Source of the DNA: a virus
DNA length: 23,065 nt
Direction: 5' to 3' (one strand)
Virus record (IMG/VR): IMGVR_UViG_3300032213_000589
Location: 1 to 23,065 of that record
The notes beneath the pieces were generated by a model that worked only from the letters and a program-made list of their open reading frames with translations, did no database searches and was not told where the DNA came from. Both the position numbers and the translations under genes were made by a program. Shown piece by piece: positions 1 to 16,451 of this stretch (the stretch's first letter is position 1; each line of letters opens with the position of its first letter).

Positions 1-1
1 A

Positions 2-79
2 TCTCCTGCCCGCCTCTCCCCAACACGCTCAAAGGTTCACGAAGACAGTCCATTTCAATCCAGACCGGTGACGAACTAA
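2..79 (+). CDS. C-terminal fragment of an HNH-like endonuclease (5' end outside window)
   Basis: An open frame enters from the window edge and stops at 77-79, four bases before terL. Its last residues carry the short motif DSPFQSRP. The HNH gene in front of the second terL has a closely similar ending (MPDSPFKIKPSPSQ), but only in the -1 frame of that gene (see 17098-17208). HNH endonucleases beside the large terminase are common in HK97-like phages and help cos or concatemer cleavage in some of them. The catalytic part lies outside the window, so the assignment rests only on the shared tail motif and the position. Confidence 0.5.
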   Translation, partial: SPARLSPTRSKVHEDSPFQSRPVTN

Positions 80-83
80 CCCG

Positions 84-1526
84 ATGGCAACCAGAACTAA
101 AAAGAAGCTTGTGGGGGCTACTAAGCCAAGACTCCACAGCCCACTACTTAAGGGTGAATCTCGTGGCGCTGAGGTAATCGAGTTCGCAAAAACTATCGGC
201 ATGGAATTAATGCCGTGGCAACAGCTAATCGTTCAAGACTTTTTCACCGTTGGGAAAGATTCTAAATTTATCCGGCGTACCGGCTTACTTTTGGTAGCCC
301 GCCAATCCGGAAAGAGCGCACTAGGTCGGATTATGTGCTTAGCCCACCTTTTCCTATTTAAGAGTCCTAGAGTCTTAATTGCTTCGTCTAATAGAGCTAT
401 GGCTTTAGTTTCGTTTCGAGAGATGGCTTACCTAATCGAAAACAATGCATTTCTCAATGCGCAAGTAAAGGCAATCCGTTACGCGAATGGCACGGAGTCA
501 ATCGAGCTATTACCAGAGTTCGGTGGCGGAAGACTTGATGTTGTAGCTGCGACGGCTGACGGTTCGCGTGGGCGCACAAGTTGGTTCACATGGGGGGATG
601 AGCTCCGTGAGTGGACCGAAGCCGCGTTCACCGCAATCACTCCAACTACTCGCGCAACAGATGGGCAGACATTCTGGACTACCAACGCTGGTGATGCTTT
701 TTCCCTTCCACTGAATGTTTTACGCGAAAAGGCTCAGGAAAATCCACCTAAGACATTTGGTTACTATGAATACAGCGCACCGCAGATGTATAAGTTCGAC
801 CCGAACAGCTCTAAGTTCTGGGAAGGTGTAGCGCAAGCAAATCCCGCTTTAGGTATAACAGTTTCCCGAGAAGCTATCGAAGAATCGCTATCAACGTCTA
901 GTCATGAATCAATTATGACCGAGCTCTTATGTTGTTGGGTTTCATCATTACAATCACCTTTCCCACCAAATTCAATCGAAGATTGCTCAGATTCTACGCT
1001 AGTCATTACAGAAACCGGATATACAGTTTTCGGCTTCGACGTTTCACCATCTAAAAGAAATGCCAGCTTATGCGCCGGTCAGATACTTCCAGATGGACGT
1101 ATAGGCGTTGGAGTTCTGCAATCGTGGGAATCAGCTGTAGCTATAGACGATTTGAAGGTAGCGGCTGATATTAAAGGCTGGTGCGATATTTATAGACCCC
1201 GCCAAATTATGTACGACAAGTATGCCACGCAATCAATCGCCGAAAGATTGGCTAACGCCGGACAAGTTGTAGAAGATTGCAGCGGGCAAAACTTCTATCG
1301 TGCGTGTGGAGACTTGTTAGATGCTGTAGTAAACCAGCGCATGATTCACAACGGGCAGAAATCTCTTATTGAGCAATTCTCCAATGTCGCAGCTAAAGTT
1401 AATGACTCCGCGTGGAGAATCATAAAAAGGAAATCCGCGGGCGATATTTCAGCACCTATCAGTATTGCCATGATAGTAAGCAAATTAATGCAACCACAAC
1501 AGACAGCGGCTATATACACCGAATGA
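84..1526 (+). CDS. terL: Terminase large subunit, copy A
   Basis: Motor ATPase and nuclease that packages concatemeric DNA into the prohead; 480 aa, normal for the family. The N-terminal ATPase has a Walker A-like ARQSGKS at residues 73-79 and a Walker B region ending in GDE at 171-173. A coupling-type TTNAG motif follows near 199-203. The C-terminal RNase H-like nuclease shows candidate metal-binding Asp at about 319 (GFDVSPS), 378 (YDKY) and 454 (SAGDISAP). It aligns without large gaps to the second terminase at 17205-18650; the last 35 or so residues are nearly identical. Walker B reads TWGDE here and LWIDE in copy B, so Gly replaces the usual aliphatic residue. No small terminase gene is recognisable; the HNH remnant lies just upstream. 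Confidence 0.95.
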   Translation: MATRTKKKLVGATKPRLHSPLLKGESRGAEVIEFAKTIGMELMPWQQLIVQDFFTVGKDSKFIRRTGLLLVARQSGKSALGRIMCLAHLFLFKSPRVLIASSNRAMALVSFREMAYLIENNAFLNAQVKAIRYANGTESIELLPEFGGGRLDVVAATADGSRGRTSWFTWGDELREWTEAAFTAITPTTRATDGQTFWTTNAGDAFSLPLNVLREKAQENPPKTFGYYEYSAPQMYKFDPNSSKFWEGVAQANPALGITVSREAIEESLSTSSHESIMTELLCCWVSSLQSPFPPNSIEDCSDSTLVITETGYTVFGFDVSPSKRNASLCAGQILPDGRIGVGVLQSWESAVAIDDLKVAADIKGWCDIYRPRQIMYDKYATQSIAERLANAGQVVEDCSGQNFYRACGDLLDAVVNQRMIHNGQKSLIEQFSNVAAKVNDSAWRIIKRKSAGDISAPISIAMIVSKLMQPQQTAAIYTE

Positions 1527-1539
1527 CATACATGTAGTG

Positions 1540-1545
1540 TATAAT
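1540..1545 (+). promoter_or_regulatory. Consensus -10 box (TATAAT) for a leaderless portal transcript, copy A
   Basis: A perfect TATAAT sits 14 bases after the terL stop and ends 8 bases before the portal ATG at 1554. Transcription would begin at or within a few bases of the ATG, giving a leaderless mRNA. There is no Shine-Dalgarno sequence before the ATG and no good -35 box at the usual spacing. The second portal gene has the same arrangement. Confidence 0.6.
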
Positions 1546-1553
1546 TGCCATCT

Positions 1554-2648
1554 ATGGCTCTCTTTTCGCGTAAAAAAACAGTTGAAGCACAACTCGCTCC
1601 GCAAGTAATGGGCGAGAGTATTTTTTCTCTTAACTCGGCAATTATGCCACGCATCTCACGCAAAGAAGCTATGTCAGTGCCAAGCATCGCTAGGGCTCGT
1701 AATCTTATTTGTGGGACTGTAGCTTCCATTCCGCTTGAGTACTACAAAACTTCCACTGGTGAAGTAATTGCACCGCCGCGTTGGATTAAACAGCTTTCAA
1801 AAACTCAGCCTTCATTTATTACCCTGACATGGTGCGTTGATTCGCTCATGATGTATGGTGTCTGTTATCTTTTAATAACCGAGCGATATGCCGAAGATGG
1901 AAGACCAGCATCATTTGAATGGATTGCTAATAATCGAGTTACTTTTACAACAGATGTAAATGGAATTATGATTGAGCAGTATTATCTAGATGCTGCGCCA
2001 ATTTCTATGAATGATATTGTGACTGTACAGGGATTTGACGAAGGAATCTTAGAGCGCGGAGCCCGTACTATTCAGGCTGCGATTGACGTAGAACGCGCAG
2101 CTGCGACTAACTCCGCAAATCCTCAACCCGCTGGTTATCTTCGTAATAACGGTGCAGACCTTCCACCTAATGAAGTCGCTGGATTACTTTCAGCTTGGAA
2201 ACGCGGCGCACAAACTAATTCAACTCGTTATTTAACTTCCACTCTGGAGTATAACGCTGTAGCTTTTTCGCCTAAAGATATGATGTATCAGGATGCGATT
2301 CGCTCACTATCTACGCAAATTGCAAGACTTACAAATATTCCGGCTTACTTATTGTCCAGCGAAGACAATCAGAGCATGACCTACTCAAACGTCCAAGATG
2401 AGCGCAAGCAATTTTATGCGCTATCTATCGAGCCATATATCCAGTGCTTACAGAGCAGATTTAGCATGGATGATATATCAACTATTGGACACGAAGTTAA
2501 ATTCGCAGTTCATGATACATTCTTAAAACAGGACCCGCTTACAGAACTTGCAGTAATTGAGAAGCTTCTAACTCTAGGACTTATTACTACAGAGCAAGCT
2601 ATGGAAATGTCAGACCTAACACCTAACGGCAGCGAAGGAATCAGCTAA
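1554..2648 (+). CDS. Portal protein, copy A
   Basis: HK97-type portal, the dodecameric ring at the capsid vertex through which DNA enters and leaves and to which terminase and connector bind. 364 aa, on the short side for the family. The N-terminal stretch with MSVPSIARARNLICGTVAS and IPLEYYK is typical. DERKQFYALSIEPY and the ending EMSDLTPNGSEGIS also match the second portal. I chose ATG 1554: the frame can be extended to a TTG at 1545, but that codon overlaps the TATAAT box and has no ribosome site. The stop is followed directly by the capsid ATG, so the two are probably translationally coupled. Confidence 0.93.
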   Translation: MALFSRKKTVEAQLAPQVMGESIFSLNSAIMPRISRKEAMSVPSIARARNLICGTVASIPLEYYKTSTGEVIAPPRWIKQLSKTQPSFITLTWCVDSLMMYGVCYLLITERYAEDGRPASFEWIANNRVTFTTDVNGIMIEQYYLDAAPISMNDIVTVQGFDEGILERGARTIQAAIDVERAAATNSANPQPAGYLRNNGADLPPNEVAGLLSAWKRGAQTNSTRYLTSTLEYNAVAFSPKDMMYQDAIRSLSTQIARLTNIPAYLLSSEDNQSMTYSNVQDERKQFYALSIEPYIQCLQSRFSMDDISTIGHEVKFAVHDTFLKQDPLTELAVIEKLLTLGLITTEQAMEMSDLTPNGSEGIS

Positions 2649-4199
2649 ATGGAACATCTAATCATCGAAGCATCATCTATCGAGTGCAGCGAAGAACGCC
2701 GCGAAATCTCCGGCAAAATCGTCCCAATGGGAACAGGCGAAGTAGGTAATACAAATCTCGGTGGCGTGGTATTTGAAGCGGGTTCAATTTCTATTGATGA
2801 CCCTTCTAAAATTCGTCTCCTTTCACAGCATGATATGAAAAAGCCTGTAGGGAAAATGCTCAGTGCAGAAACACGTCCAGATGGAATTTACGCTACGTTT
2901 CGTTTAAGCCGCAGCACTGGCGGTAATGATGCTCTCGTCATGGCTCAAGAAGGATTAGTTACAGGTCTTTCAGTTGGTGCAGAAATTATTGCTTCAAAGC
3001 CATCGCGTAACGGACACACAGTAGTAACAGCAGCTTCTCTAAAGGAAGTCAGCCTTGTCACCGAAGCGGCATTTAAAACAGCCGCAATTACAGAAATTCG
3101 AGCTGAGGAATCTCCTCTCGTCGAAGAAAACCCAATCCAACCAGAAAGCGAGCCAGTCATGGAAGAAACCCAGACTCCGGTAGAAGCTCCAGCAGTTGAA
3201 GCAGCAGCAGTCGAAGCCGCTCGTCCAACAGTTGCAGCAGCATTTACAGTACGGGAGCGAACAGCTCCAATTACATCTGCGCAGTACCTCGGCGCACAAA
3301 TCAAAGCGGCTATGGGCGATGAGACAGCTCGTCGTACAGTTCTAGCAGCGGATGATTCAACTTCAACAAATACAGGTCTGACTTTGCCAGCCCACCTAAA
3401 CATGTTTCAGACAACTACATTCTCAGGACGTCCAGCGTTCGATGCAGTTACACGTTCTGGAGCTGTACCACAACTTTCATTTACAATTCCTAAAATGGGA
3501 ACTGCACCTACAACAGCTGTAACAGCTGAGGGTGCTGCACCATCTGAGACAGGAATGACATCAACATACGACACAATTACAGCGAGCAAGTATTCAACGC
3601 TTAACCGTGTTTCATTCGAGCTCCTTGATTTTTCAAATCCGGCGTTCGAGACACTCCTTTTGGATGAAATGAGAAAAGGCTACGAGAAGGCTACAGATAA
3701 CGCGCTTCTTGCATACTTTACTTCTGCGGGAACACAGGCAACTGGTGTAGCTGCAACAGCGGCAGGTCTCCAGAGCTTTATTTCTACACAAGGTCCAGCT
3801 GCATACAAGGCAACAGGCGGAGATTACGCTAATAAGCTTGTAGCATCAACAGACCAGTGGAGCGCTATCCTCGGATACGCGGACACAACAGGTCGCGCAT
3901 TATTTAATGCTGAGTCACCTGTTAACGCATCTGGTAACGGTTCAATCACATCTACAGTTGGTCGCGTACTAGGTGCGGACTTAATCGTGGACCATAACAT
4001 CACAACATCCGGAATCATTGATGAGTCAGCTTTCCTTGTTGCGCCTAACAGCGTATATGTTTGGGAATCCCCTGTCACAAATTTGAGACTCAATGTGCTA
4101 ACTACAGGCGAAATTGAAATCAACATGTACGGCTACCTAGCAATTCACGCGAAGGCAGCTGGAGCTGGTATTCGTCGTTTTAATTACACAGCACCGTAA
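2649..4199 (+). CDS. Prohead protease-major capsid fusion protein, copy A
   Basis: A single 516-aa chain joins an HK97-type maturation protease (about residues 1-150) to an HK97-fold capsid protein (about 200-516). In the protease, LLSQHD carries the likely catalytic His61 and GLSVGAE the likely Ser108; EVSLVTE (134-140) is the usual third conserved block. Residues 152-200 are a Glu/Pro/Val/Ala-rich linker, probably standing in for the scaffolding delta domain, with an invariant VEAAAVEAARPTV at 183-195. The capsid part has the usual Ala/Thr-rich body and ends in a beta-rich segment (YGYLAIHAKAAGAG). Such fusions are known in very small actinobacterial siphophages. AAGGA upstream is a good ribosome site, overlapping the end of the portal gene. 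Confidence 0.93.
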   Translation: MEHLIIEASSIECSEERREISGKIVPMGTGEVGNTNLGGVVFEAGSISIDDPSKIRLLSQHDMKKPVGKMLSAETRPDGIYATFRLSRSTGGNDALVMAQEGLVTGLSVGAEIIASKPSRNGHTVVTAASLKEVSLVTEAAFKTAAITEIRAEESPLVEENPIQPESEPVMEETQTPVEAPAVEAAAVEAARPTVAAAFTVRERTAPITSAQYLGAQIKAAMGDETARRTVLAADDSTSTNTGLTLPAHLNMFQTTTFSGRPAFDAVTRSGAVPQLSFTIPKMGTAPTTAVTAEGAAPSETGMTSTYDTITASKYSTLNRVSFELLDFSNPAFETLLLDEMRKGYEKATDNALLAYFTSAGTQATGVAATAAGLQSFISTQGPAAYKATGGDYANKLVASTDQWSAILGYADTTGRALFNAESPVNASGNGSITSTVGRVLGADLIVDHNITTSGIIDESAFLVAPNSVYVWESPVTNLRLNVLTTGEIEINMYGYLAIHAKAAGAGIRRFNYTAP

Positions 4200-4207
4200 G
4201 CAATACC

Positions 4208-4260
4208 CTAAGTCGCTTAGTGGGGGTGCCGGAGCCCTTGCACTCCCACTAAGTCTTTAG
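4208..4260 (+). other. Conserved covarying RNA hairpin between capsid and connector genes, copy A
   Basis: A 14-bp stem (4216-4229 with 4240-4253, one G-U pair) closes a 10-base loop ending in GCCCTT. Outside it, CTAAG (4208-4212) can pair with CTTTAG (4255-4260), leaving one bulged base. Copy B has a stem at the same place with different bases but preserved pairing, and identical flanks. No T tract follows, so a standard intrinsic terminator is unlikely. The loop CCTT could pair with the AAGG of the next gene's ribosome site (4262-4265) as a pseudoknot. Role unknown: mRNA stabilisation, processing, or dosage control between capsid and connector. Confidence 0.75.
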
Positions 4261-4272
4261 AAAGGATAGACA

Positions 4273-4845
4273 ATGGCAATCACATCGGTAGCAACTCTTA
4301 GAGCCGCTTTAGGTGTTGGCACTTTGTACAGTGATGCCGTTTTACAAACTGTCTGCGATAGCTCAGATAACGTATTGCTACCTTTTTTATGGAAAAATGA
4401 TTTTCCTATTGTTGCGCACTCAAGTGAAGGCACAGTAGGCACTTTGTATTTTAATACAGACATAAGAGATACATTTTATATTGGTCAATCGGTTGTAATT
4501 TCGAACTCAGGCAGCCGATACAATGGCACAAAAACAATTACCACGGTTAGCGAGTATTCATTTACTGTCGCAATTACAGCGGGTAGCAATAACCCTTACC
4601 ACACCATTCAACCTTACGGCAACGCTGCAGCCGAAACTTATACAGATTATTCCACTGTACCTGCTATTCAAACTGCAAGTCTTTTAATTTCCGAAGCAAT
4701 ATGGCAAGCACGTCAAGCGCCAAGCGGACAAGGAATGTCAGTAGATGGATTTACTCCATCTCCATTTACTATGTCTAATACTTTAGTTGCACGAGTAAGA
4801 GGTTTAATAGCGCCGTATCTTAGCCCGAATTCAATGGTGGGCTAA
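4273..4845 (+). CDS. Head-tail connector (adaptor) protein, copy A
   Basis: 190 aa. The N-terminal helix pattern (TSVATLRAALGVGTLYSDAV) and the C-terminal part (QTASLLISEAIWQAR, then LVARVRGLIAPYL) are those of gp6/gp15-like head-tail adaptors, which form a ring under the portal. A beta-rich insert of roughly 80 residues (about 50-130) splits these helical parts and varies most between the two copies. The start has a clear GAAAGGA ribosome site, right after the conserved hairpin. The stop shares one base with the next start. The exact adaptor subfamily cannot be fixed by eye. Confidence 0.7.
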   Translation: MAITSVATLRAALGVGTLYSDAVLQTVCDSSDNVLLPFLWKNDFPIVAHSSEGTVGTLYFNTDIRDTFYIGQSVVISNSGSRYNGTKTITTVSEYSFTVAITAGSNNPYHTIQPYGNAAAETYTDYSTVPAIQTASLLISEAIWQARQAPSGQGMSVDGFTPSPFTMSNTLVARVRGLIAPYLSPNSMVG

Positions 4846-5234
4846 TGCCAGCGATAACTACTCTACGTGCAAGTTTAGCCGCGGCTTTAGTAGATAATAC
4901 TCTCTACTCTACTTTCAGTTTCCCACCGGCTACGCCTATCGCAAATAGCGTAGTGATAATTCCATCGGACCCGTACCTTACTCCGAATAATAACCAGTAC
5001 GCATCTATCAGCCCTATGGCTAACTTTTCGATTCAGATATTTGTGCCTCTCATGGACAACGAAGGCAACCTAAACGGAATAGAGCAAATGCTAGTAGCTG
5101 TATTTAATAAGCTCGCATCCTCATCTATTCAAATGAATGTTGGCAGTGTAAGTGCGCCTAGCGTGTATGCATCTGCCACCGGCGATTTGCTTACATGTAA
5201 TATCTCTGTAAGCAGTTTAACAGAATGGAGCTAG
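4845..5234 (+). CDS. Tail terminator or neck protein, copy A
   Basis: 129 aa, following the connector and preceding the tail tube. It has the N-terminal helix TTLRASLAAALVDNT, a central block with SDPYLTPNNNQ and FVPLMDNEGNLNGIEQML, and a beta C-terminus (SGDLLTC in copy B, TGDLLTC here). Length and position fit a tail terminator, the ring that caps the tail tube and joins it to the connector; the same place is used by HK97 gp10-type and gpU-type proteins. The copy at 22033-22425 shares much of the sequence, including DNEGNLNGIE. Start and previous stop overlap by one base (TAATG). Confidence 0.6.
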   Translation: MPAITTLRASLAAALVDNTLYSTFSFPPATPIANSVVIIPSDPYLTPNNNQYASISPMANFSIQIFVPLMDNEGNLNGIEQMLVAVFNKLASSSIQMNVGSVSAPSVYASATGDLLTCNISVSSLTEWS

Positions 5235-5236
5235 AC

Positions 5237-5335
5237 ATGACCGATGCATCAAACGCGGCTTGGCTTGAACGAATCGGTCAAGTTAAGCCAGAAGCAACAA
5301 AGCCAGCTACACCGACAAAGAAAGAAGAAGAATAA
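5237..5335 (+). CDS. Conserved 32-aa microprotein between tail terminator and tail tube, copy A
   Basis: 32 residues beginning MTDASNAAWLERIGQV and ending in a charged KKEEE. A GGAG ribosome site lies 8 bases upstream, overlapping the end of the terminator gene, and the tail tube ATG follows two bases after the stop. At the equivalent place in copy B (22427-22525) there is a frame of exactly the same length with IGQV, KPA and TKKDEE conserved, although much of the rest differs. That makes it a real gene. The layout is an N-terminal amphipathic helix with Trp, then a Lys/Pro/Thr linker, then an acidic tail. Function unknown; a tail assembly cofactor is a guess. Confidence 0.75.
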   Translation: MTDASNAAWLERIGQVKPEATKPATPTKKEEE

Positions 5336-5337
5336 TC

Positions 5338-5772
5338 ATGGCACAATTTATTAATAACAAAGTCGGCGTAAAGCTCGGCGCGACTTCACCTGCAAGCACT
5401 GACTTGAGTTCATATTGCACCAGCTTTACTCTCAATAGAGCATTTGACGAAATTTCCGTCACCGCGATGGGAGACCTTGGGGTCCGTCAGATTGCCGGTT
5501 TGGAAACTTCGACACTGACAATCGAATTTATCAATGATGACGGCGCTAGTGCTGTACTTCAAACACTTAACACACTTCTAGGCACAAATGCATATTTCAA
5601 GGTAGCCAATAACAAAGATGCAGCGGGCTCAGCTGCTAACCCTTTCTTCACAGGTCTATGCTTGATTAACAACATTACACCGATTAACGGCGCTGTAGGA
5701 GATTTATCTACTCAGTCTGTTACATTTAACGTATCTGGTGCAGTTACAAAGACTGAAACAGGAACTTTTTAA
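5338..5772 (+). CDS. Major tail tube protein, copy A
   Basis: 144 aa, almost all beta and rich in Thr, Ala, Asn and Ser. The frames FTLNRAFDEISVTAMGD, then GLETSTLTIEF, then INGAVGDLSTQSVTF are typical of short siphophage tail tube proteins, which stack as hexamers around the tape measure. Its place just before the two tail chaperone frames and the tape measure supports this. Copy B (22531-22950) aligns along the whole length, with the most change around residues 80-105. No immunoglobulin-like extra domain is present. Confidence 0.85.
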   Translation: MAQFINNKVGVKLGATSPASTDLSSYCTSFTLNRAFDEISVTAMGDLGVRQIAGLETSTLTIEFINDDGASAVLQTLNTLLGTNAYFKVANNKDAAGSAANPFFTGLCLINNITPINGAVGDLSTQSVTFNVSGAVTKTETGTF

Positions 5773-5794
5773 TAACTAAACAAAGGGGCTAAAA

Positions 5795-6046
5795 ATGGCA
5801 AAGCTAGTAGTAACAATGAAAGACGGAGTATTGCATGATGTGGAGATTACTCCACGATTGGAATACAACTTCGAGCAGCATGTAGGCATGGGATTCCATA
5901 AGGCGTTGCAGGACCTACAGAGGCAGTCGGACATCTACTGGTTGGCTTTCGAAGGCTTGCGTTTAGCGGGTGTTCAAATAAAGCCGATGCCTGAATTCTT
6001 GGACATGATAACGAAAGTTGACGTCCTAGATTCAGACCCTTCGTAG
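5795..6046 (+). CDS. Tail assembly chaperone G-type, copy A
   Basis: 83 aa, placed between tail tube and tape measure as in most siphophages, where G and GT proteins hold the tape measure during tail assembly. It opens with MAKLVVTMKDG and VEITPRLEYNFEQHVG; the window-end fragment at 22974 starts in the same way. A strong AAAGGGG ribosome site is present. The frame ends at TAG 6044-6046. A second frame overlaps its end in the -1 register (6022-6225) and looks like the T part of a G-T fusion. Confidence 0.75.
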   Translation: MAKLVVTMKDGVLHDVEITPRLEYNFEQHVGMGFHKALQDLQRQSDIYWLAFEGLRLAGVQIKPMPEFLDMITKVDVLDSDPS

Positions 6047-6225
6047 TTGAGCGGGGCTCTATAACGTACATCGCAGCGCGATTGAGTTACGAATATGGAG
6101 TCCCGCTTAACACCATAATAGATTTATCGCCGAGAGCTTTCAAGGCGCATTTAGATGTACTTAACGATTTAGCGAGGGAGCGAGAAAATGCCAACAGAAG
6201 TAGTGGGCGCCGTCGCACTTCGTAA
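6022..6225 (+). CDS. Tail assembly chaperone T-type extension (-1 frame of G)
   Basis: Open frame with no good start of its own, lying in the -1 register to the G gene and overlapping its last 25 bases. After the overlap it reads RGSITYIAARLSYEYG, then VPLNTIIDLSP and a helical, Arg-rich end. This resembles the T portion of actinophage G-T proteins, where a minority of ribosomes shift frame near the end of G. A TGA at 6019-6021 limits the slip to 6022-6046. No classical heptamer is there; C CCT TCG at 6037-6043, just before the stop, is the closest fit. The last 38 bases overlap the next gene. Existence of the domain is likely; the exact junction is unknown. Confidence 0.65.
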   Translation, partial: RPRFRPFVVERGSITYIAARLSYEYGVPLNTIIDLSPRAFKAHLDVLNDLARERENANRSSGRRRTS

Positions 6226-6808
6226 GGCATTAAATCAATACGCACCGGACTTAGCTAAAGAATTAACTAAAGAGCTTGGCATTGTTTTGAAACCTGTTGT
6301 AGCAGAGGCTCGTGGATTTGTGCCGCTTGATTCTCCAATGTCCGGATGGGCTCCAACTAACTCCGGCAGAATCGGCGGGTTTCCTAAATACGATGCTATG
6401 GCTATTCGCCGTGGAATTATTTACAAAACTACGCCATCTAAAGTTAATAAAGCTGGATTTGTAAATAACATTCGCATCCAGAATAAGTCAGCGCAGGGTG
6501 CTATCTATGAGACAGCTGGACGTAAAAATGGACAGGGACAAGATTGGGTTGGACCGAAAGCCTTTGCACGTTCTAAAGGCGTTTCACGTTCTGTTAACCC
6601 TTACGCTGGCAATCAGTTTATTTCTAATCTTGGCAATCTCTACGGTCCAAGCCGCAAGGGAGACCATCGCATGATGGGGCGATTGATTTTTAGAGCATGG
6701 GCTAATACTCAAGGCAAGGCTAACGCTTCGGTAATCAAGGCTATAGAAAGCACTACGGCTAAATTTAATCGTCGAACTGAAATTGTTGACATTAGGAGAG
6801 CCGCATGA
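6188..6808 (+). CDS. HK97 gp10-like tail/neck protein
   Basis: 206 aa, basic. The pattern of an N-terminal helix (VALRKALNQYAPDLAKEL), then LKPVVAEARGFVP and a Gly/Arg/Lys-rich middle (MSGWAPTNSGRIGGFP), is seen in HK97 gp10-like proteins, which complete the tail or neck. The location between chaperone T and the tape measure is unusual for that family, which normally lies among the connector genes; some very small actinophages place it here. Only one copy is in the window. It overlaps the T frame upstream by 38 bases and the tape measure by four (ATGA). The family call is moderate. Confidence 0.5.
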   Translation: MPTEVVGAVALRKALNQYAPDLAKELTKELGIVLKPVVAEARGFVPLDSPMSGWAPTNSGRIGGFPKYDAMAIRRGIIYKTTPSKVNKAGFVNNIRIQNKSAQGAIYETAGRKNGQGQDWVGPKAFARSKGVSRSVNPYAGNQFISNLGNLYGPSRKGDHRMMGRLIFRAWANTQGKANASVIKAIESTTAKFNRRTEIVDIRRAA

Positions 6809-8376
6809 GTAATGTAGCAATTAATATCCTTGCTGAATTTATCGGCAAAAAAGCTTTCGATAAAGCTGGAAAATCTATCAGCAAGCTTGAAAAATCTGCA
6901 TTTAAACTAGGCAGAGCTCTTGGTCTTGCTTTAGGTACTACAGCAATAGTCGCTTTTGGTAGAGCCTCCTTAAAAGCATTTGCCTCAGATGAGGCAGCGG
7001 CTCAGCGCCTTGCAACTGCAGTAGATAATTTAGGACTGTCTTATTCTAGAACTAGAGTAGCTGATTTTATTTCGGGCTTAGAAGCTTCGGCTGGAATCGC
7101 TGATGACGTTTTACGTCCAGCTATGCAAGCACTTTTAACCACCACCGGCTCTTTGACTAAATCACAAACTTTACTTAACAATGCCATCCAAATCTCACGC
7201 GCAAGCGGTGTCGAACTTTCTACCGTTTCACAGGATTTGGCTAACGGCTATGTAGGAATTACTAAAGGTCTTAAGAAATACAACACTGGTCTGACTCAAG
7301 CCGAATTAAAGAGCAAATCATTTGCGGATATTCTAGGCATATTGCTTACTAACTCAGCTGGTGCAGCTAACGCTTATCTCGACACTACAGAATATAAATT
7401 AGCAGTGCTTGGAGTTGCAGCCGATAACGCTAGAGAATCTATCGGTAGAGGCTTAGTAGATGCATTTGCAAAGATGAGCGGCGGCACTGAGGCAAGTGAT
7501 GCGGCAAAGACTATTAACAATATAGCTAAGGCTATCAATGCCATTACTGGTGCTGTAGGCGGTGCCATAGGCGGTATAACTAAGCTCTACGGCAAGCTTG
7601 ATAATTTCGTGCAGAACTTTGACCCGCTATTTGGAGACTCACTAGCTTCTCAAAAGACAAGAAAAGTAGGGCGCTCAGCTTCTCCAGCGGGAACTGCCCG
7701 TAGAACAGCTCAACAGAGAATAGCCGAAGTAGCGGCAGCCAAGCGAGCTAAAGAGCTTTACAACATTCAGCAAAAGCAAGTCAAGGCTCAACAGGCTTTA
7801 CTGGCAGAGCAAAAGAAGCAAGCTGCGCTCAAGAAAGCAGCTACCGTATTTGACGTAGAGCAAGCCGGTCTAATTGCAGCTCTGACTCGTAACATTACTA
7901 AAGAAGAAGAAACCAGAGCTAAGGCTCAACTAGCTTTACTGAACGGTAATGCAGCCGTAGCTACTTCTCTTACAAAGCAAATCCTCATGTCTCAAGATGC
8001 GACAGGCGCTCTTTACAAATTATGGCAGACTTTGCCAGATGCTAAGAATCCTTTTCTATACCTTGAAGCTTATCTAGTAGAGCTTGGCAAGAAAGCGCAA
8101 GCGGCGTTAACTTTAACCTTGCCAGTCGCAACTTCTATAGGTACAGATTTTATGAATAGCGTAGTGGCTCAATCAGCATCAAATGTACCAGTCAGTCCTT
8201 TCCCTAGAACGCAACCCGGAGACTTCCGCAGATACGAAGAAGCTTCTAACCGAACTGGACCAATCCAAGTAGTAGTACAGCTTGATGGACAGACTATTGC
8301 GCAATCAAACCAGAATCAATCTTTATCGGGGACTCCAAGTGCCATCAACCGTACTTTAGGAATGTTTAGCGGCTAA
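6805..8376 (+). CDS. Tape measure protein
   Basis: 523 aa, mainly helical and Ala/Lys-rich, the longest single gene of the tail block. The N-terminus has the repeated Lys/Ala heptad style of tape measures (AFDKAGKSISKLEKSAFKLG) followed by a hydrophobic segment around residues 36-50. A helical coiled-coil-like stretch (about 300-345, many Lys/Gln/Ala) follows, and the C-terminus is beta with QVVVQLDGQTIAQ (a common ending). With the usual relation of about 0.15 nm per residue the tail would be near 80 nm, short for a siphovirus. It starts by ATGA overlap with the gp10-like gene and ends with one base shared with the next start. Confidence 0.88.
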   Translation: MSNVAINILAEFIGKKAFDKAGKSISKLEKSAFKLGRALGLALGTTAIVAFGRASLKAFASDEAAAQRLATAVDNLGLSYSRTRVADFISGLEASAGIADDVLRPAMQALLTTTGSLTKSQTLLNNAIQISRASGVELSTVSQDLANGYVGITKGLKKYNTGLTQAELKSKSFADILGILLTNSAGAANAYLDTTEYKLAVLGVAADNARESIGRGLVDAFAKMSGGTEASDAAKTINNIAKAINAITGAVGGAIGGITKLYGKLDNFVQNFDPLFGDSLASQKTRKVGRSASPAGTARRTAQQRIAEVAAAKRAKELYNIQQKQVKAQQALLAEQKKQAALKKAATVFDVEQAGLIAALTRNITKEEETRAKAQLALLNGNAAVATSLTKQILMSQDATGALYKLWQTLPDAKNPFLYLEAYLVELGKKAQAALTLTLPVATSIGTDFMNSVVAQSASNVPVSPFPRTQPGDFRRYEEASNRTGPIQVVVQLDGQTIAQSNQNQSLSGTPSAINRTLGMFSG

Positions 8377-9620
8377 TGGCACTCCCAGCAAATATAGCCG
8401 TTTCTTTCGACTTTAGTTCTGGTGCTACGTTCGGCACCGGATTTGTTATAGGTTCTGACAAGAATGGAATTATTGGCACTTCTTCTTTTGGTTCATCCGA
8501 TGTTATTTTGCCGGTAGTTGACCTTACGCCTAATGTTTACGAGATTACGATTAAACGTGGTCGCAATATTCTGCGCGATACTTACGAAGCTGGTACAGCT
8601 ATCGTGCGCGTGTTAGACCCTGATTCTAATTTTAATCCTCAGTCAGTTACTTCACCTTACTATCCTTATCTAACTCCACTGCGTAAGGTTCGCATTTCAG
8701 CTACTACAGCCACTACAGATAAATTCTTATTCAGCGGTTACGTTACTGATTACAAATACTCTTACCCTACTTCGCAAGAAACAGGATACGTAGATATTTA
8801 TTGCAGCGATGCATTTAGATTATTCCAGATGGCTAACATTACAGCTGTTACGGATTCCGGCGCTGGTCAAGACACTGGCACTAGAATTAATAAGATTCTG
8901 GACCAAGTATCCTTTCCTGCATCTATGCGCACTATCGCTACAGGTGTAAACACTTGCGTAGCTGACCCTGCAACTTCGCGCACTTCACTCGATGCAATTA
9001 AAAACGCAGAATTTAGCGAAACCGGCGCATATTATCTCGACGGTACGGGAACCGCAGTATTTAAGAATAGAACTCAGGTCATGAGCTCACTAGCGGCTAC
9101 GCCTATTGAGTTTAATCAGACCACTGGTATCCCATACCAGAATCTAAAATATGCTTTTGATGACAAACTCATCATAAATACTTGCACTTTTACTCGTGTT
9201 GGCGGCTCACCCATTACGGTCTTTGACCAGACTTCTATAGACAAATACTTCCCGCATGGCATTACTCAAGATAACTTAGTAGCGCAGACAGATGCTTTAG
9301 TTACAGATATTGCTAGGGAATTTATTAGTACGAGAAAAGACACTACTATTCGTATTGACGAAATGACAGTAGATTTGCTCGATACGTCAGTACCTACCGA
9401 TACCATGATTGGTTTAGATTTCTTCGATAACTTGAAGATAACAAACGTCCAGCCGGACGGCAGTACCATCGTTAAAACTCTCCAGTGTCAGGGTATTAAC
9501 TGGAGCATCACCCCCAACAAAATGACAGCGGTAATAACTACGCTAGAGCCTATTGGTGATGCCTTCATCATCGGCAGCTCTACGTACGGTATAATCGGTG
9601 TCTCGACATTTAGTTATTAG
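8376..9620 (+). CDS. Tail-tip (minor tail / hub-like) protein
   Basis: 414 aa, directly after the tape measure, the usual place for distal tail and hub proteins that build the tail tip. The body is beta-rich with YEITIKRGRN, then the AIVRVLDPDSNFNP block and the FSGYVTDYKY block that recur in actinophage minor tail proteins. A motif of the form F-x-I-G-S-x3-G-I-I-G-x-S-x-F occurs twice: at residues 23-38 and again at the very C-terminus (397-412). It may be a clasp that brings the two ends together, or an attachment peptide for the fibres encoded next. Enzymatic motifs are not visible. Confidence 0.7.
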   Translation: MALPANIAVSFDFSSGATFGTGFVIGSDKNGIIGTSSFGSSDVILPVVDLTPNVYEITIKRGRNILRDTYEAGTAIVRVLDPDSNFNPQSVTSPYYPYLTPLRKVRISATTATTDKFLFSGYVTDYKYSYPTSQETGYVDIYCSDAFRLFQMANITAVTDSGAGQDTGTRINKILDQVSFPASMRTIATGVNTCVADPATSRTSLDAIKNAEFSETGAYYLDGTGTAVFKNRTQVMSSLAATPIEFNQTTGIPYQNLKYAFDDKLIINTCTFTRVGGSPITVFDQTSIDKYFPHGITQDNLVAQTDALVTDIAREFISTRKDTTIRIDEMTVDLLDTSVPTDTMIGLDFFDNLKITNVQPDGSTIVKTLQCQGINWSITPNKMTAVITTLEPIGDAFIIGSSTYGIIGVSTFSY

Positions 9621-9629
9621 GAGCAAGTA

Positions 9630-10016
9630 ATGGCAACATTTCCAGTAGCAACAGGTGACGTATTAACCGCCGCCACTTACAACTCGTTGCCGGTTTTTAC
9701 AGTAGGCGCAGATAACACCGCCGATTACACAGCTGTTCTCTCTGACCAATATCAGGTACTAGAGATTATGAATAAAGCTACTGCTATTGCTTTTAAGATT
9801 CCTACAAACGCAACAGCGGCTTTTCCCATCGGGACGGTTATTACAGTGCTCAACCGTGGCGTGGGAGTCTGCACAATAAGCGCCGTGACAAGCGGCACCA
9901 CGACTGTACTTAGTGCCGGAGCCGTAGCTGCCGCACCAACACTAGCCCAGTACAAAGCGGCTGCATGTCTGAAAATTGCTACCGATACTTGGATTATTAC
10001 TGGGGCGATTGGCTAA
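9630..10016 (+). CDS. Small tail-tip/fibre beta-domain protein
   Basis: 128 aa with a good AGGAG ribosome site. It has the domain often seen at the ends of marine and freshwater phage fibres: DYTAVLSDQYQVLEIMN, then AIAFKIPTNATAAFPIGT, then TVLNRGVG and a final ATDTWIITGAIG. The fold is a small beta domain probably forming trimers. Here it is a separate gene between the tail tip and three fibre paralogs, so it may be the adaptor joining them. The next gene starts in the stop codon (TAATG). Confidence 0.6.
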   Translation: MATFPVATGDVLTAATYNSLPVFTVGADNTADYTAVLSDQYQVLEIMNKATAIAFKIPTNATAAFPIGTVITVLNRGVGVCTISAVTSGTTTVLSAGAVAAAPTLAQYKAAACLKIATDTWIITGAIG

Positions 10017-10546
10017 TGCTTAATGGCATAGCAGCTTTACACGCGGGTGGGGTACCAGCTGAGACTAACTCTTACGAGTCTATTGCGACCACAACAGTAG
10101 GGTCAGGCGGTACTGGCACAATTACTTTTAGCTCTATTCCATCAACTTTTAAGCATTTACAGATTCGTTGTTTAATAAAAGCATCAGGCGCGGTAAATCC
10201 TTTGATTCGATTTAACGGTGATAGCACCAACAGTTATTACTGGCACGGACTTTATGGTACTGGTTCAGCAGCCGGAGCAAATAACGGTGGCGGTTTAGGC
10301 GATGCTATGATTTTGGCTTACTCTGACAATCAATGGGGCTCAGCAATTTCGGATATATTGGATTACACCAACACAAATAAGAACACAACAATCCGTAATC
10401 TTGGCGGGTGCGATACTAACGGTGGCGGTCAGATAGCACTTAACTCGGGGTTTTATATCAAGACCGATGTAATTACCAGTGTTTCTATTACTGGCACAAC
10501 CTTTGCTCAGTATTCATCATTCGCACTATACGGAATTAAGGGGTAA
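10016..10546 (+). CDS. Fibre/receptor-binding protein, paralog 1 of 3
   Basis: 176 aa from ATG 10016; the frame can be extended upstream to 9965, but that would overlap the previous gene by 52 bases and has no ribosome site, while 10016 overlaps its stop by one base. It starts with an extra 20 residues (MLNGIAALHAGG) lacking in the other two and possibly anchoring the fibre. The shared body then follows: SIATTTVGSGGTGTITFSS, IPSTFKHLQI, LYGTGSAAG at residues 79-87, and the terminal FALYGIKG. A beta-sandwich receptor-binding role is inferred from position and from the tandem paralogs. Confidence 0.65.
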   Translation: MLNGIAALHAGGVPAETNSYESIATTTVGSGGTGTITFSSIPSTFKHLQIRCLIKASGAVNPLIRFNGDSTNSYYWHGLYGTGSAAGANNGGGLGDAMILAYSDNQWGSAISDILDYTNTNKNTTIRNLGGCDTNGGGQIALNSGFYIKTDVITSVSITGTTFAQYSSFALYGIKG

Positions 10547-10549
10547 ATA

Positions 10550-11077
10550 ATGCCAGCCGGTTCAACTTATACGCCGATAGCAAGTACTACGCTGACTGCT
10601 TCTGCTACTGAAATTAACTTTACGTCAGTATCTAGTGCTTATACCGATTTAGTTCTTGTATGTAATTTAGGTATGAGCCGAACAGGTGCTGCTTTCTTTT
10701 TACGTGTGGGAAACGGCACCATTGATACTGGGTCTAACTACTCTGAAACAGAACTTTATGGTACAGGTAGCGCAGCAGGTTCAGCGCGGCGCACTAGCAG
10801 TACCGAGTGGAATATCTTTAGTAATGTTGGTTCTAGCACTACAACTGGTGAAAATACTTTTATTATGCAGTTTATGAATTACAGCAATACAACTACAAAT
10901 AAAACCGTTCTTGGGCGCGCTAATAATGCTTCTAGTTCTAGTTTTCCCGGAACTGCGGCAGCCGCTTTTTTATGGCGTTCTACTAGCGCAATTAACACAA
11001 TTAGAGTAGTAAGAAATGGTACTGATACTTTTAACTCTGGCAGCACATTTACCCTCTACGGAATCGCGGCTGCATAA
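10550..11077 (+). CDS. Fibre/receptor-binding protein, paralog 2 of 3
   Basis: 175 aa, Ser/Thr/Asn-rich and probably all beta. It aligns with its neighbours through TPIASTTLTASATEINFTS, then YTDLVLVCNL, an exact LYGTGSAAG (69-77) shared with paralog 1, and the ending FTLYGIAAA. The middle third differs strongly, as expected for a receptor-contact surface. Three bases separate it from paralog 1, and its stop overlaps the next start by one base. Another frame inside it (10686-10877) is a shadow. Confidence 0.65.
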   Translation: MPAGSTYTPIASTTLTASATEINFTSVSSAYTDLVLVCNLGMSRTGAAFFLRVGNGTIDTGSNYSETELYGTGSAAGSARRTSSTEWNIFSNVGSSTTTGENTFIMQFMNYSNTTTNKTVLGRANNASSSSFPGTAAAAFLWRSTSAINTIRVVRNGTDTFNSGSTFTLYGIAAA

Positions 11078-11577
11078 TGCCTAATACATTTGAACTTATT
11101 GCAAGCTCGACGCTGGGAAGCGCAGCCTCAAACATAGAGTTCGCTTCAATCCCTGCAACCTTTACAGACTTAAAACTTGTCTATTCTTTGCGCAGCGATA
11201 ATGGAGACGATTACTTTGCTTTGACTTTAAACGGTTCATCATCATCATTTACTACAAGAGATGTACAAGGCGGCGGCACAAGTGCTGCATCTGCCAATAG
11301 GTCTGACAACCTATTAGTTTTTACACAAGACCCTAGCTCGATGACAGCAAACACATTCTCAAGCGGTGAAATCTACTTCCCTAATTATGCCGGTTCAACG
11401 AATAAATCTTTTAGCCAAGACACAGCATACGAGAACAATGCAACCAGCGCAGGAATGGCTTTACGCGCTGGGTTATGGTCTAACACGGCAGCAATCACAA
11501 CAATCAGAATCGCTAAAGCATCAGGGAACTTTACTGCAAACTCAACCGCCTACCTATATGGAGTAAAAAATGCCTAA
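11077..11577 (+). CDS. Fibre/receptor-binding protein, paralog 3 of 3
   Basis: 166 aa with the same plan: FELIASSTLGSAASNIEF, ASIPATFTDLKLVYSL, a GGGTSAASANR stretch where the other two have GTGSAAG, and the ending AYLYGVKNA. It is the shortest and most diverged in the centre. With the two upstream genes it forms a tandem family that probably arose by duplication. This style of protein (IAS..L......I.F.SIPATYTDL) is common in uncultured aquatic phages. Direct receptor binding is inferred, not shown. Confidence 0.65.
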   Translation: MPNTFELIASSTLGSAASNIEFASIPATFTDLKLVYSLRSDNGDDYFALTLNGSSSSFTTRDVQGGGTSAASANRSDNLLVFTQDPSSMTANTFSSGEIYFPNYAGSTNKSFSQDTAYENNATSAGMALRAGLWSNTAAITTIRIAKASGNFTANSTAYLYGVKNA

Positions 11578-11791
11578 TCCAACACGAATCGAAATCAACT
11601 GCGAGACAGGCGTGGAGTCAATCATTGAACTCACCGATGCCGAAGTTGCAGAGATGGCAGCACAGGCGGCACTAGCTGCTGAGAAGAAGGCAGAAGATGA
11701 TGCAGCGGCAGCGGCTAAGGCAACTGCTAAGGCTGCTCTGTTAGAACGTCTTGGCATAACAGCCGATGAAGCGGCACTACTACTGGGATGA
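11570..11791 (+). CDS. Ala-rich small protein after the fibre genes
   Basis: 73 aa. The N-terminus (TRIEINCETGVESIIELT) is followed by a long Ala/Glu/Lys helix (about 24-58), probably a coiled coil, and a short leucine-rich end (LLERLGITADEAALLLG). Proteins of this layout commonly follow the fibre genes in actinophages and may be chaperones or fibre-tip partners; their role is not settled. It overlaps the preceding gene by eight bases and the endolysin by four (ATGA). Confidence 0.65.
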   Translation: MPNPTRIEINCETGVESIIELTDAEVAEMAAQAALAAEKKAEDDAAAAAKATAKAALLERLGITADEAALLLG

Positions 11792-12219
11792 GCCCTAAGT
11801 TATGTGCAGCTGGTGTAACTTTAAGGGAGCAAGTAAATGCTCGCTATAAAGACAGAGACAAGCGCAGCGATGGCTGGATTGCCGATGCACGTCATCTATC
11901 AGGTGGTGTATCGGACCATATTGCTACAGCGGATGGGATTGTTAGAGGGCTCGACCTTGACAGGGATTTACATGGAGTACCGAAACCAGACGAAATGCCT
12001 TATCTTGCAGACCAATTACGATTACTTGCCAAGTCTAAAAGAGATGGTGGAAGAATTGCCTATATCATATTTGACGGCGTTATTGCCAGCCCGAAGAAGT
12101 CTTGGAATTTCCGTAAATACGTGGGGAGCAATCAGCACCGCCATCACATGCATGTCAGCTTTACGAGCAAGGGCGATAAAGACGGTTCGTTATTTCTACT
12201 CCCACTACTCGAAGGATAA
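11788..12219 (+). CDS. Endolysin, M15/VanY-like peptidoglycan peptidase
   Basis: 143 aa, a single enzymatic domain with no separate cell-wall-binding domain. The layout fits M15-type zinc peptidases that cut peptide cross-links: GGVSDHI with the first zinc ligand His44, GLDLDRD with the second ligand Asp56 or Asp58, and HRHHMHVSF with His122 as the third. No signal peptide is present, so release would depend on a holin; two membrane microproteins follow at once. The frame at 11837-12223 on the same strand is a shadow. The ATGA overlap with the Ala-rich gene fixes the start. Confidence 0.8.
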   Translation: MSPKLCAAGVTLREQVNARYKDRDKRSDGWIADARHLSGGVSDHIATADGIVRGLDLDRDLHGVPKPDEMPYLADQLRLLAKSKRDGGRIAYIIFDGVIASPKKSWNFRKYVGSNQHRHHMHVSFTSKGDKDGSLFLLPLLEG

Positions 12220-12223
12220 GTAA

Positions 12224-12364
12224 ATGAACATGAAGAATCCAGCGGTCCTAGCACTCGGCGCATTTCTAGCAGCATGGGCTGGTAGTAACTTTGAGGTGGA
12301 CTACCGCGCTATTCTCTGGGCTATTCTTTCAGGCGTGTTCGGATATGCGAGCCCGAAGAAATGA
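12224..12364 (+). CDS. Putative holin (46 aa, two membrane segments)
   Basis: Starts four bases after the endolysin stop. MNMKNP precedes a hydrophobic stretch AVLALGAFLAAWAG; a short polar loop SNFEVDYR and a second hydrophobic stretch AILWAILSGVFGYA follow, then SPKK. Two membrane passes with basic ends in a very short protein next to an endolysin is the class II holin plan. The TGA overlaps the next start by four bases (ATGA). Holin function is inferred from layout and position, not from a recognised family. Confidence 0.65.
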   Translation: MNMKNPAVLALGAFLAAWAGSNFEVDYRAILWAILSGVFGYASPKK

Positions 12365-12510
12365 CACAACAGGATTTCTTTACTCTTTACTTTGCAAGCT
12401 TGACAATAGTAGGCGGCTTGGCTGGCTACGTGATTACGCATTTACTTAGCGAGATAAAAAGACTCAACTCGCGGGTGGATGAAATCTACAATATCTTACT
12501 AGACAGGTAA
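12361..12510 (+). CDS. Small membrane protein, possible second holin or antiholin (49 aa)
   Basis: MTQQDFFTLY leads to one hydrophobic span (FASLTIVGGLAGYVITHLL), then a charged amphipathic helix with heptad spacing (EIKRLNSRVDEIYNILLDR). The one-span plus coiled-coil layout resembles small phage lysis accessory proteins. Overlap with the putative holin by ATGA suggests coupled translation and a two-part holin system. Spanin-like or unrelated membrane functions are possible. It closes the late block: a new promoter-like box starts within its stop codon. Confidence 0.6.
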   Translation: MTQQDFFTLYFASLTIVGGLAGYVITHLLSEIKRLNSRVDEIYNILLDR

Positions 12511-12513
12511 CAT
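12485..12513 (+). promoter_or_regulatory. Putative promoter for a leaderless transcript before the 72-aa gene
   Basis: TCTACA (12485-12490, four matches to TTGACA) lies 17 bases before TAACAT (12508-12513), which ends six bases before the ATG at 12520. Spacing to the start codon is the same as for the two portal promoters, and a Shine-Dalgarno sequence at proper distance is lacking. It marks the change from lysis genes to the next block. Confidence 0.45.
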
Positions 12514-12519
12514 TTATCT

Positions 12520-12738
12520 ATGGCTAAGAAAAAGGTCATAGACCTAGATACTTACAACGCGTTAGATGCGTATGCCATTTCGATGCACGAATTCTATAAA
12601 GCTTTAAGACGTGCCGGATTCGCAGTAGATATGTGCTTAGGAATTATCACAGAGCGCAGTGCTTATCCTGATTGGATTATGCCAGAGCTGCCTAATCGCA
12701 TAGACAATATTCCCTATGATGACGAGGATGACGATTAA
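12520..12738 (+). CDS. Hypothetical small acidic protein
   Basis: 72 aa, not recognised. A basic start (MAKKK) leads to helical segments (ALDAYAISMHEFYKALRRAG, then FAVDMCLGIITER) and a strongly acidic end (YDDEDDD). No membrane segment, no zinc motif. It is probably the first gene after a leaderless promoter and overlaps the following phosphoesterase by 11 or 23 bases, so the two are likely co-expressed. The acidic tail could mimic DNA or bind a basic partner; that is speculation. Confidence 0.65.
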   Translation: MAKKKVIDLDTYNALDAYAISMHEFYKALRRAGFAVDMCLGIITERSAYPDWIMPELPNRIDNIPYDDEDDD

Positions 12739-13492
12739 GCGAACCGTAGTGGTGCCTGACCTTCAAATTCCATATCACGATGTAGTAGCCGTCAAAAACG
12801 TCACGGCTTTTATTAAGGCGTTCAAGCCGGACTCAGTAGTAATTTTGGGTGACGAGCTGGACCTCCCTATGATTTCAAAATGGGAAGAAGGCAAGCTCGG
12901 ATGGTTCGAGCAGACACTTCACGATGACAGGGAGCAAGCTGTAGAGATTCTCTGGGGCTTAACTGAGTTCGCTAAAGAAGCCCACGTAACGCGTAGTAAC
13001 CACACAGATAGATTGTATAACGTCATCATGCGCAAGATACCGGCTTTCTTGGCACTGCCAGAGCTACGCTATGAGAAGTTCATGAGATTCGAGGAGCTTG
13101 GGATTCAGTACCATAAGAATCCATATCCGATTGCTAAAGGCTGGATAGCTATACACGGGGATGAAGGCAGCATAAGTCCACACGCGGGAATGACCGCGTT
13201 GACTCATGCCCGCAAAATGGGGCTAAATGTAATTTGTGGGCATACGCATCGTGCCGGTCAGAGTGCCTTTTCTGAGGCTTCCAACGGGGTTTTAAGACGT
13301 GTTCACAGGGGAGTGGATGCCGGACACCTCATGAATCTAAAAGCGGCTCACTATACCCGTGGGACCGCTAATTGGCAGCAATCTATACAAATCATTACAG
13401 AGGATTCTAAAGGCGTACAGATTGACCTTATATATATAGAGAAGGATGGCACGTTCGCCGTGCATGGGAAGCGTTATGGACGTCCCCGCTAA
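12716..13492 (+). CDS. Metallophosphoesterase
   Basis: Up to 258 aa, calcineurin-like fold. Motifs in order: VVPDLQIPYHD (metal site I, with Gln where many members have His), VVILGDELDL (GDxxD, site II), RSNHTDR (the GNHE equivalent), IAIHGDEG and VICGHTHRAG (GHTH, last site). Phage members of this group are common in actinophages; targets (DNA ends, cyclic nucleotides or phosphoprotein) are unknown. ATG codons at 12716, 12719 and 12728 are in frame; 12728 gives the smallest overlap, with GAGG directly in front, so the start is open. The last 17 bases overlap a possible 36-aa frame. Confidence 0.85.
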   Translation: MMTRMTIKRTVVVPDLQIPYHDVVAVKNVTAFIKAFKPDSVVILGDELDLPMISKWEEGKLGWFEQTLHDDREQAVEILWGLTEFAKEAHVTRSNHTDRLYNVIMRKIPAFLALPELRYEKFMRFEELGIQYHKNPYPIAKGWIAIHGDEGSISPHAGMTALTHARKMGLNVICGHTHRAGQSAFSEASNGVLRRVHRGVDAGHLMNLKAAHYTRGTANWQQSIQIITEDSKGVQIDLIYIEKDGTFAVHGKRYGRPR

Positions 13493-13586
13493 GCTCGGAT
13501 TCCCCTATTTTGAGGATGAAGACCCTTCTCAAATCGTTATCAAATCGTTATCAAAAAAGGGTGGCTGCCGCTACAGACTGATGTAG
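13476..13586 (+). CDS. Possible 36-aa microprotein overlapping the phosphoesterase end
   Basis: ATG 13476 has GGGAAG at a plausible ribosome-site distance. The frame reads MDVPAKLGFPYFEDEDPSQ and continues through the 11-base direct repeat to TAG. Composition is mixed, with no domain. No second copy is available for a conservation test and part of it covers a likely regulatory repeat, so it may be chance. Confidence 0.3.
   Translation: MDVPAKLGFPYFEDEDPSQIVIKSLSKKGGCRYRLM
13530..13551 (+). repeat. Two tandem copies of an 11-base repeat containing TTATCA
   Basis: CAAATCGTTAT occurs twice without a gap (13530-13540, 13541-13551), followed by CAAAAAA. It places TTATCA at 13537-13542 and 13548-13553, one helical turn apart (11 bases). 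A third TTATCA starts at 13595 and an inverted one (TTGATA) ends at 13619. The regular phasing suggests sites for a DNA-binding protein. Confidence 0.6.
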
Positions 13587-13595
13587 TGTTCTCTT

Positions 13596-13619
13596 TATCA
13601 GGTAAACCGTTACTTGATA
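13596..13619. promoter_or_regulatory. 24-bp dyad, likely operator or regulatory hairpin
   Basis: TATCAGGTAA (13596-13605), a four-base centre ACCG, and TTACTTGATA (13610-13619) form an inverted repeat with one mismatch (a G-U pair if transcribed). It lies 19 bases before the start of the 57-aa gene. The half-site TATCA(A/G) also occurs in the direct repeat upstream. No repressor gene is visible in the window. Confidence 0.55.
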
Positions 13620-13637
13620 CTAGGTTAGGAGAACAAA

Positions 13638-13811
13638 ATGAACGAATCAGTTTTAAGCACATTAGTAATAGAGATTGAAAAGAATCGCAATACAGCTGGT
13701 TATTATGCAGCCATGAAAAATACTAAGCTGGCAAATAAGTACGAACATATCGCTGCCGGACTAGAAGAAGCTCACCGCATCATCGTTAACGAGATGGCGG
13801 TAAATGCATAA
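13638..13811 (+). CDS. Hypothetical 57-aa protein, first gene after the regulatory gap
   Basis: A strong AGGAGAA ribosome site precedes ATG 13638. The protein is helical (MNESVLSTLVIEIEKNRNTA, then YEHIAAGLEEAHRII) with no known motif. It begins a run of overlapping small genes downstream of the only sizeable intergenic gap, so it is probably the first gene of an early transcript. The stop shares one base with the next ATG. Confidence 0.7.
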   Translation: MNESVLSTLVIEIEKNRNTAGYYAAMKNTKLANKYEHIAAGLEEAHRIIVNEMAVNA

Positions 13812-15775: not shown

Positions 15776-15783
15776 CCTAATCC

Positions 15784-16396: not shown

Positions 16397-16438
16397 TGCA
16401 TTTCACAGTAGTATTCATGTCCGTATTGCCCTAATTAG

Positions 16439-16444: not shown

Positions 16445-16451
16445 TCGTCTA

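Follow-up and report, generated by a model that had tools for sequence, protein, structure and literature searches.

Long-distance RNA pairing that sets the dosage of structural proteins is textbook knowledge for RNA phages; in double-stranded DNA (dsDNA) tailed phages, it is usually promoters, terminators, ribosome sites and frameshifting that are regarded as setting the dosage. The Min Jou interaction of MS2 is a long-distance contact between the coat gene and the replicase start (Berkhout and van Duin 1985, cited in PMC11339067). This contact resembles the one proposed here in that an upstream structural-gene sequence pairs with the start of a downstream gene on the same phage RNA, and in a proposed logic of repression and coupling to coat or capsid translation. 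It differs in that the RNA here would be the mRNA of a dsDNA tailed phage, the upstream partner an untranslated hairpin loop and the target a tail assembly chaperone (TAC) gene. The Q-beta U1 hairpin likewise has a conserved loop, whose partner in a long-distance pseudoknot lies about 1200 nt away (PMC3561173), but it serves RNA replication rather than a start site. Small RNAs from 3′ untranslated regions, e.g., SdhX (PMC6393394), originate at the 3′ ends of coding transcripts and pair with mRNAs, as may also be the case here; however, trans action and processing have been shown for them, whereas for the present element they are conceivable. In lambda, −1 frameshifting between gpG and gpGT (PMC5009743) concerns the dosage of the same kind of chaperone, whose ratio matters; it acts at the gene end on the G:GT ratio, while the contact described here would act at the gene start. 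The open-licence literature yielded no earlier description of the link between such a loop and TAC, or of such pairing in late transcripts of dsDNA tailed phages.

The best explanation of the whole, to which we assign a probability of roughly three in four, is that a hairpin loop behind the capsid gene and the TAC start form a long-distance RNA–RNA interaction that lowers TAC translation. In hundreds of freshwater actinophage genomes, the capsid and tail modules would thus be linked by an RNA contact, as judged from sequence alone, and this link probably sets the amount of chaperone relative to capsid. It provides testable base-pair predictions and a search route, namely the comparison of capsid-3′ hairpin loops with chaperone starts elsewhere.

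Window and gene layout

The window, i.e., the whole stretch of 23,065 nt that was analysed, contains one small siphovirus genome (A) and, end to end with it, the start of a second, related one (B). Both carry, in this order, the genes for the terminase, the portal, a protease-capsid fusion, the connector, a tail-completion-like protein, the major tail protein (MTP) and TAC, beyond which genome A runs on to a tape-measure-like gene. The features around the hairpin are as follows.

2649-4199, + strand: capsid protease/major capsid fusion gene of copy A, upstream of the hairpin (PHROG 2263 major head protein; Pfam Phage_capsid and Peptidase_S78)
4208-4265, + strand: hairpin element A (fold and shuffles; covariance model 84.3 bits)
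4208-4212 with 4256-4260, + strand: outer helix of element A
4215-4229 with 4240-4254, + strand: 15 bp stem of element A
4234-4239, + strand: loop motif GCCCUU of element A, the part predicted to pair with the TAC leader (GCCCU in 228/228 distinct junctions; in other clades it changes together with the TAC start)
4261-4265, + strand: connector ribosome site AAAGG of element A
4273-4845, + strand: head-tail connector gene A (open reading frame and homologs)
21399-21453, + strand: hairpin element B (fold; covariance model 62.7 bits)
21423-21428, + strand: loop motif GCCCUU of element B
21461-22033, + strand: head-tail connector gene B (56% identity to copy A)

The connector protein (4273-4845) has no Pfam or PHROG match, though its relatives in IMG/VR are abundant. 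Positions 1-17200 and 17205-23065 belong to two different related phage genomes, with 45% identity in the capsid and 56% in the connector protein, and their junction lies between an HNH gene and the terminase gene. The record is probably a chimeric assembly, a tandem arrangement being the alternative. Where the HNH gene of genome A ends, just before the junction, there is a terminator-like hairpin followed by seven T (17083-17104). Another double-genome contig is perhaps 3300047272_000039 (loci L276/L309), which at 32321 bases is about twice the usual 16–17 kb of the group. One hairpin-carrying contig, found by pattern, lies in a MAG of an uncultured actinobacterium from an order whose genomes are mostly 1.2–1.5 Mb among those listed, as in Nanopelagicales; this carrier contig and these genome sizes suggest a Nanopelagicales-like actinobacterium as host. 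A prophage search in GTDB returned no homolog with the connector.

The hairpin as a selected RNA element

Copy A of the element folds at −30.6 kcal/mol (z = −4.0) and copy B at −31.3 kcal/mol (z = −4.2), and none of 200 dinucleotide shuffles was equally stable. The first-pass annotation had observed that the stem is kept between the two copies despite changes on both sides, with flanks and loop unchanged, and this was borne out: the flanks and the GCCCTT loop are common to both, and the stem differs on both sides. The outer helix proposed there (CTAAG/CTTTAG) likewise forms in the folds of both copies (CUAAG/UUUAG).

Connector-protein homology led to 80 IMG/VR loci, two of which (L053 and L077) begin too near the gene to show the hairpin; the same element was found in every locus with enough upstream sequence. 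Further scans added loci, some of them fetched by a hairpin DNA pattern and hence not an unbiased sample. At least 228 distinct capsid/connector junctions were collected, all with a GCCCT loop (225 GCCCTT, two GCCCTC and one GCCCTG), and these frequencies describe the loci sampled among the matches listed in the scans. In two ungapped alignments, 99.8% of the cells are paired, and 10 and 9 pairs, respectively, are changed on both sides; the covariation score was reached by 0 of 500 shuffles and was lost when the partner was slid by one column, in agreement with the earlier claim that compensatory changes indicate selection on structure. A covariance-model search in related contigs, which the same annotation had suggested, gave one copy per genome, always at the capsid/connector junction, with a sense score far above the antisense score. 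Together with the G–U cells found on the sense strand, this strand preference indicates that it is the sense strand, as mRNA, that folds. On this comparative evidence, the hairpin is an element under selection as RNA.

A repeat or mobile element was rejected on the grounds of a single copy per genome at always the same junction, and a structure of the DNA strand was rejected because the sense strand is favoured. A comparison with the 4227 models of Rfam gave no match up to E = 1.

The loop and the adjoining connector ribosome site

The first-pass annotation had read the hairpin as a possible local (H-type) pseudoknot between its loop and the adjoining connector ribosome site. One part of this reading was retained, since the element is a selected RNA whose loop is antisense to a downstream ribosome site; however, the covarying partner is the TAC start, not the connector. 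The complementarity between CCUU and AAGG on which the proposal was based is present in the window and in most window-type relatives, but is lost in relatives with AAAGAGG, in which the loop is unchanged. The loop matches its own connector leader by 3–4 nt in 222/313 loci; in clades with other loop types this match is not beyond chance, the GAGGCUC and CCUAGUCC clades showing none, and the complementarity between loop and connector site was found to be neither conserved nor covarying. In addition, a linker of 6–7 nt would have to span a stem of 13–15 bp, which is sterically unfavourable on geometrical reasoning. A local pseudoknot is thus extremely improbable.

The TAC gene and its start site

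The putative partner of the loop lies about 1.5 kb downstream, where the following features were located.

5783-5789, + strand: complementary site AAGGGGC in the TAC leader of copy A (172/173 genomes have AGGG(G)C at most 22 nt from the TAC start; predicted loop duplex −11.1 kcal/mol)
5795-6046, + strand: TAC first frame of copy A, after the MTP gene (conserved −1 frame extension in eight lineages)
6022-6222, + strand: overlapping −1 frame extension of TAC (gpGT-like) of copy A (open frame, conserved in position and length)
22962-22968, + strand: complementary site AAGGGGC in the TAC leader of copy B (duplex with loop B −10.8 kcal/mol)
22974-23065, + strand: TAC gene of copy B (homologous start and leader), cut by the window end

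This gene lies between the MTP gene, assigned by PHROG, and the tape-measure-like gene (523 aa), whose identity is given by position and length only, and it has an overlapping −1 frame extension of about 52–60 residues that is conserved in eight lineages. No profile named TAC matched the window protein, and its relatives match phrog_6889 or phrog_23030, which are of unknown function. Judged by its position after MTP and its conserved −1 frame extension, the gene is TAC.

The single exception among the 173 genomes in which AGGG(G)C was sought near the TAC start codon looks like a mis-called start, and the motif occurs in only 0–5% of the leaders of every other gene. It is not simply the Shine-Dalgarno sequence (SD), because about 20 genomes have a separate AAGGAG as SD and still keep AAGGGC between this SD and the start codon. 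The positional conservation of GCCCT, followed from 2.4 kb upstream to 0.9 kb downstream, is strongest at the hairpin loop. In the GCCCU clades, TAC codons 8–9 read AGG-GCN, with AGG as the Arg codon in 209/209 cases, compared with 67/887 (7.6%) of the Arg codons elsewhere in the first 60 TAC codons; this codon usage indicates that AGG in the TAC site is under a silent constraint, with a count that is inflated by relatedness. The TAC start is also less structured than random segments (unpaired probability 0.59 vs. 0.48). Extra AAGGGC sites complementary to the same loop were seen within the TAC gene of relatives (codons 7–9 and about +90; e.g., L215 and L054).

Statistics of the match between loop and TAC start

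A 14-nt segment of the loop matches the TAC start region (−30 to +36) in runs of at least 6 nt in 266/313 pairs, compared with about 10% of random windows between connector and MTP. When sites were ranked by duplex energy within their own genome, the TAC start was the best for 44 of 153 distinct hairpins (2 with shuffled loops) and within the best 5% for 102 (16 with shuffled loops). Matches of at least 7 nt occur in 25–48% of genomes in the bins at the TAC start and at +80, and in 0.8% elsewhere. Among 17 lineages with less than 60% connector identity, such matches are present in 12, compared with 2% of windows; after swapping the loops among these lineages the mean was 7.3, and 12 was reached in 1 of 300 permutations. 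Below 50% connector identity there are only six lineages, with which the swap test is without power. Fisher's method over nine lineages gave p values of about 6e-10 (windows) and 6e-12 (shuffled loops), which hold as orders of magnitude only, the nine lineages having been chosen post hoc.

The copies in the window match at the leader site only, with five Watson–Crick pairs (6–7 with G–U) and predicted duplex energies of −11.1 (A) and −10.8 kcal/mol (B). Taken alone, this pairing is not unusual, being equalled by 63/764 (A) and 23/258 (B) windows; it is the comparison of relatives that carries the argument.

Covariation of the loop with the TAC start

In the GCCCU clades, every one of the 274 distinct TAC start regions carries GGGC in its leader. 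Wider scans brought in relatives with entirely different stems, and five further loop types each match the TAC start of their own clade, three by 7–9 nt and two by 5–7 nt: AAGCCUU with AAGGCUUC at +21 of TAC (three loci), GAGGCUCG with CGAGCCUC at +4 (two loci), CCCCUUC with GAAGGG(G) at −11 (two loci), CCUAGUCC with CUAGG at −7 (seven loci) and UAGUAGCCCU with AGGGCUA(CU) at +21 (three loci). Three loci (L427/L429/L431) combine a GCCCU loop with a plain TAC leader, and the doubt that they cast on the pairing was resolved by a match at +21 inside the TAC gene.

In distant phages related to Pontimonas phiPsal1, the hairpin lies 2.7–4.2 kb upstream of TAC and the loop matches by 7–10 nt. The loop UUGUAGGUUG of L362 matches the TAC start CAACCUACAA by 10 nt, and the matches of L361, L365, L366 and phiPsal1 itself are 8, 7, 10 and 6 nt long, respectively. 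For L370/L603, a match was predicted from the TAC start before the hairpin sequence was retrieved, and the loop GUGCGUAGGC then matched CCUACGCA by 8 nt; the same prediction failed for L375/L604, which have a small GUUU loop without a TAC match, and no match between loop and TAC was found in L376 and L378. Taken singly, the phiPsal1 match (6 nt) and that of the CCUAGUCC type (5 nt core) are weak. Among cultured phages, Shagrat, REQ1 and TM4 have a hairpin behind the capsid gene and no TAC match, and the small actinophages Decurro, Penoan, Belthelas, McGonagall, BlueFeather, RRH1 and Root have no hairpin, because their capsid–adaptor gap is only about 0–3 nt.

Two features of a Min Jou-type contact were found: the loop is complementary to the initiation region of a gene far downstream, and the two sides vary jointly between relatives (six loop types and the distant phages). 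Since most lineages are of the GCCCU type, the independent loop switches are few (about eight), and some of the matches exploit SD-like sequence. The pairing of loop and TAC start, as complements that co-vary across lineages, is well supported by these comparisons.

The near-invariance of GCCCU over diverse stems could also be expected of a site bound by a protein of the phage or its host, similar to the MS2 operator, with the TAC match as a by-product. However, a protein site predicts neither that loop types switch jointly with the TAC start in other clades nor that a constraint on the AGG codon sits in the TAC gene, which makes it a highly unlikely reading.

The hairpin might also act in trans, as a small RNA from the capsid 3′ untranslated region directed at several structural genes including TAC. 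In L361, L362 and L365, there is a further match of 7–11 nt between the loop and the start of the gene directly after the capsid gene, so that several targets, or an effect in trans, are possible; clades with a T tail would give such an RNA a discrete 3′ end, and SdhX offers a bacterial precedent (PMC6393394). In the window family, on the other hand, a second target gene was not found, and this reading is somewhat unlikely. The sites after the capsid gene that match the loop are at 730-741 in L362, 314-322 in L361 and 447-454 in L365, with up to 11 nt.

T tract and termination

The statement in the first-pass annotation that the hairpin has no T tract holds strictly, as copy A is not flagged by a terminator scan, but needs to be qualified, as UCUUU trails the stem and T4–T7 occur in some relatives. 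This bears on the possibility that the hairpin serves to terminate or attenuate transcription behind the capsid gene, which would yield more capsid than downstream mRNA and leave the loop sequence incidental. The window element shares the gene position and a GC-rich hairpin with terminators downstream of capsid genes, such as the textbook terminator of phiPsal1 (MG835450), and T4–T7 follow the hairpin in L404-, L427-, L425- and L361-type relatives. Unlike these terminators, however, the window type is without a real T tract: the UCUUU directly after its stem is not a U-rich tract, and the clades vary, some having such a tract and several lacking it (median T in the best 6 nt: 2 in the GTTACCCC type, 1.5 in GAGGCUC and 2 in CCUAGUCC). 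Given this variation, the hairpin is not a conserved terminator. Several clades without a T tract still keep the match between loop and TAC, and a terminator predicts neither the conservation of the loop nor its covariation with a gene 1.5–4 kb away. Termination as the whole explanation is unlikely, and it may be an extra in some clades rather than a shared feature.

Proposed mechanism

In the proposed long-distance interaction, the hairpin behind the capsid gene would present its loop (GCCCUU in the window), which would base-pair with the TAC start region (AAGGGGC before the start codon), either within one structural-gene mRNA or between molecules. The target is always inside or next to the footprint of the initiating ribosome, be it in the SD, the spacer, the start codon or the first ten codons, and pairing would therefore be expected to block initiation; as this region is otherwise fairly open, it would be hidden rather than exposed. 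Repression of TAC, which we infer from this arrangement, would keep TAC output low relative to capsid and MTP. In lambda, it matters in which proportion the two chaperone forms are made (PMC5009743), which renders such dosage control plausible. More speculatively, ribosomes that terminate on the capsid gene or initiate on the connector gene flank the hairpin and could open the contact, as coat translation does in MS2 (PMC11339067); TAC synthesis would then be coupled to translation of the capsid.

A wider generalization, to which we would give slightly less than an even chance, is that this is a general dosage-control RNA of tailed phages, in which the loop of a capsid-end hairpin is antisense to the TAC start, and in some phages also to the gene after the capsid, with loop and target re-evolving together repeatedly.

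A second small hairpin was noticed nearby in relatives, often with the capsid stop codon in its loop and with differing arm sequences (e.g., L003, L064 and L027). Arms of at least 5 bp enclose the capsid stop codon in 63/217 genomes, compared with 9/221 for the connector stop codon.
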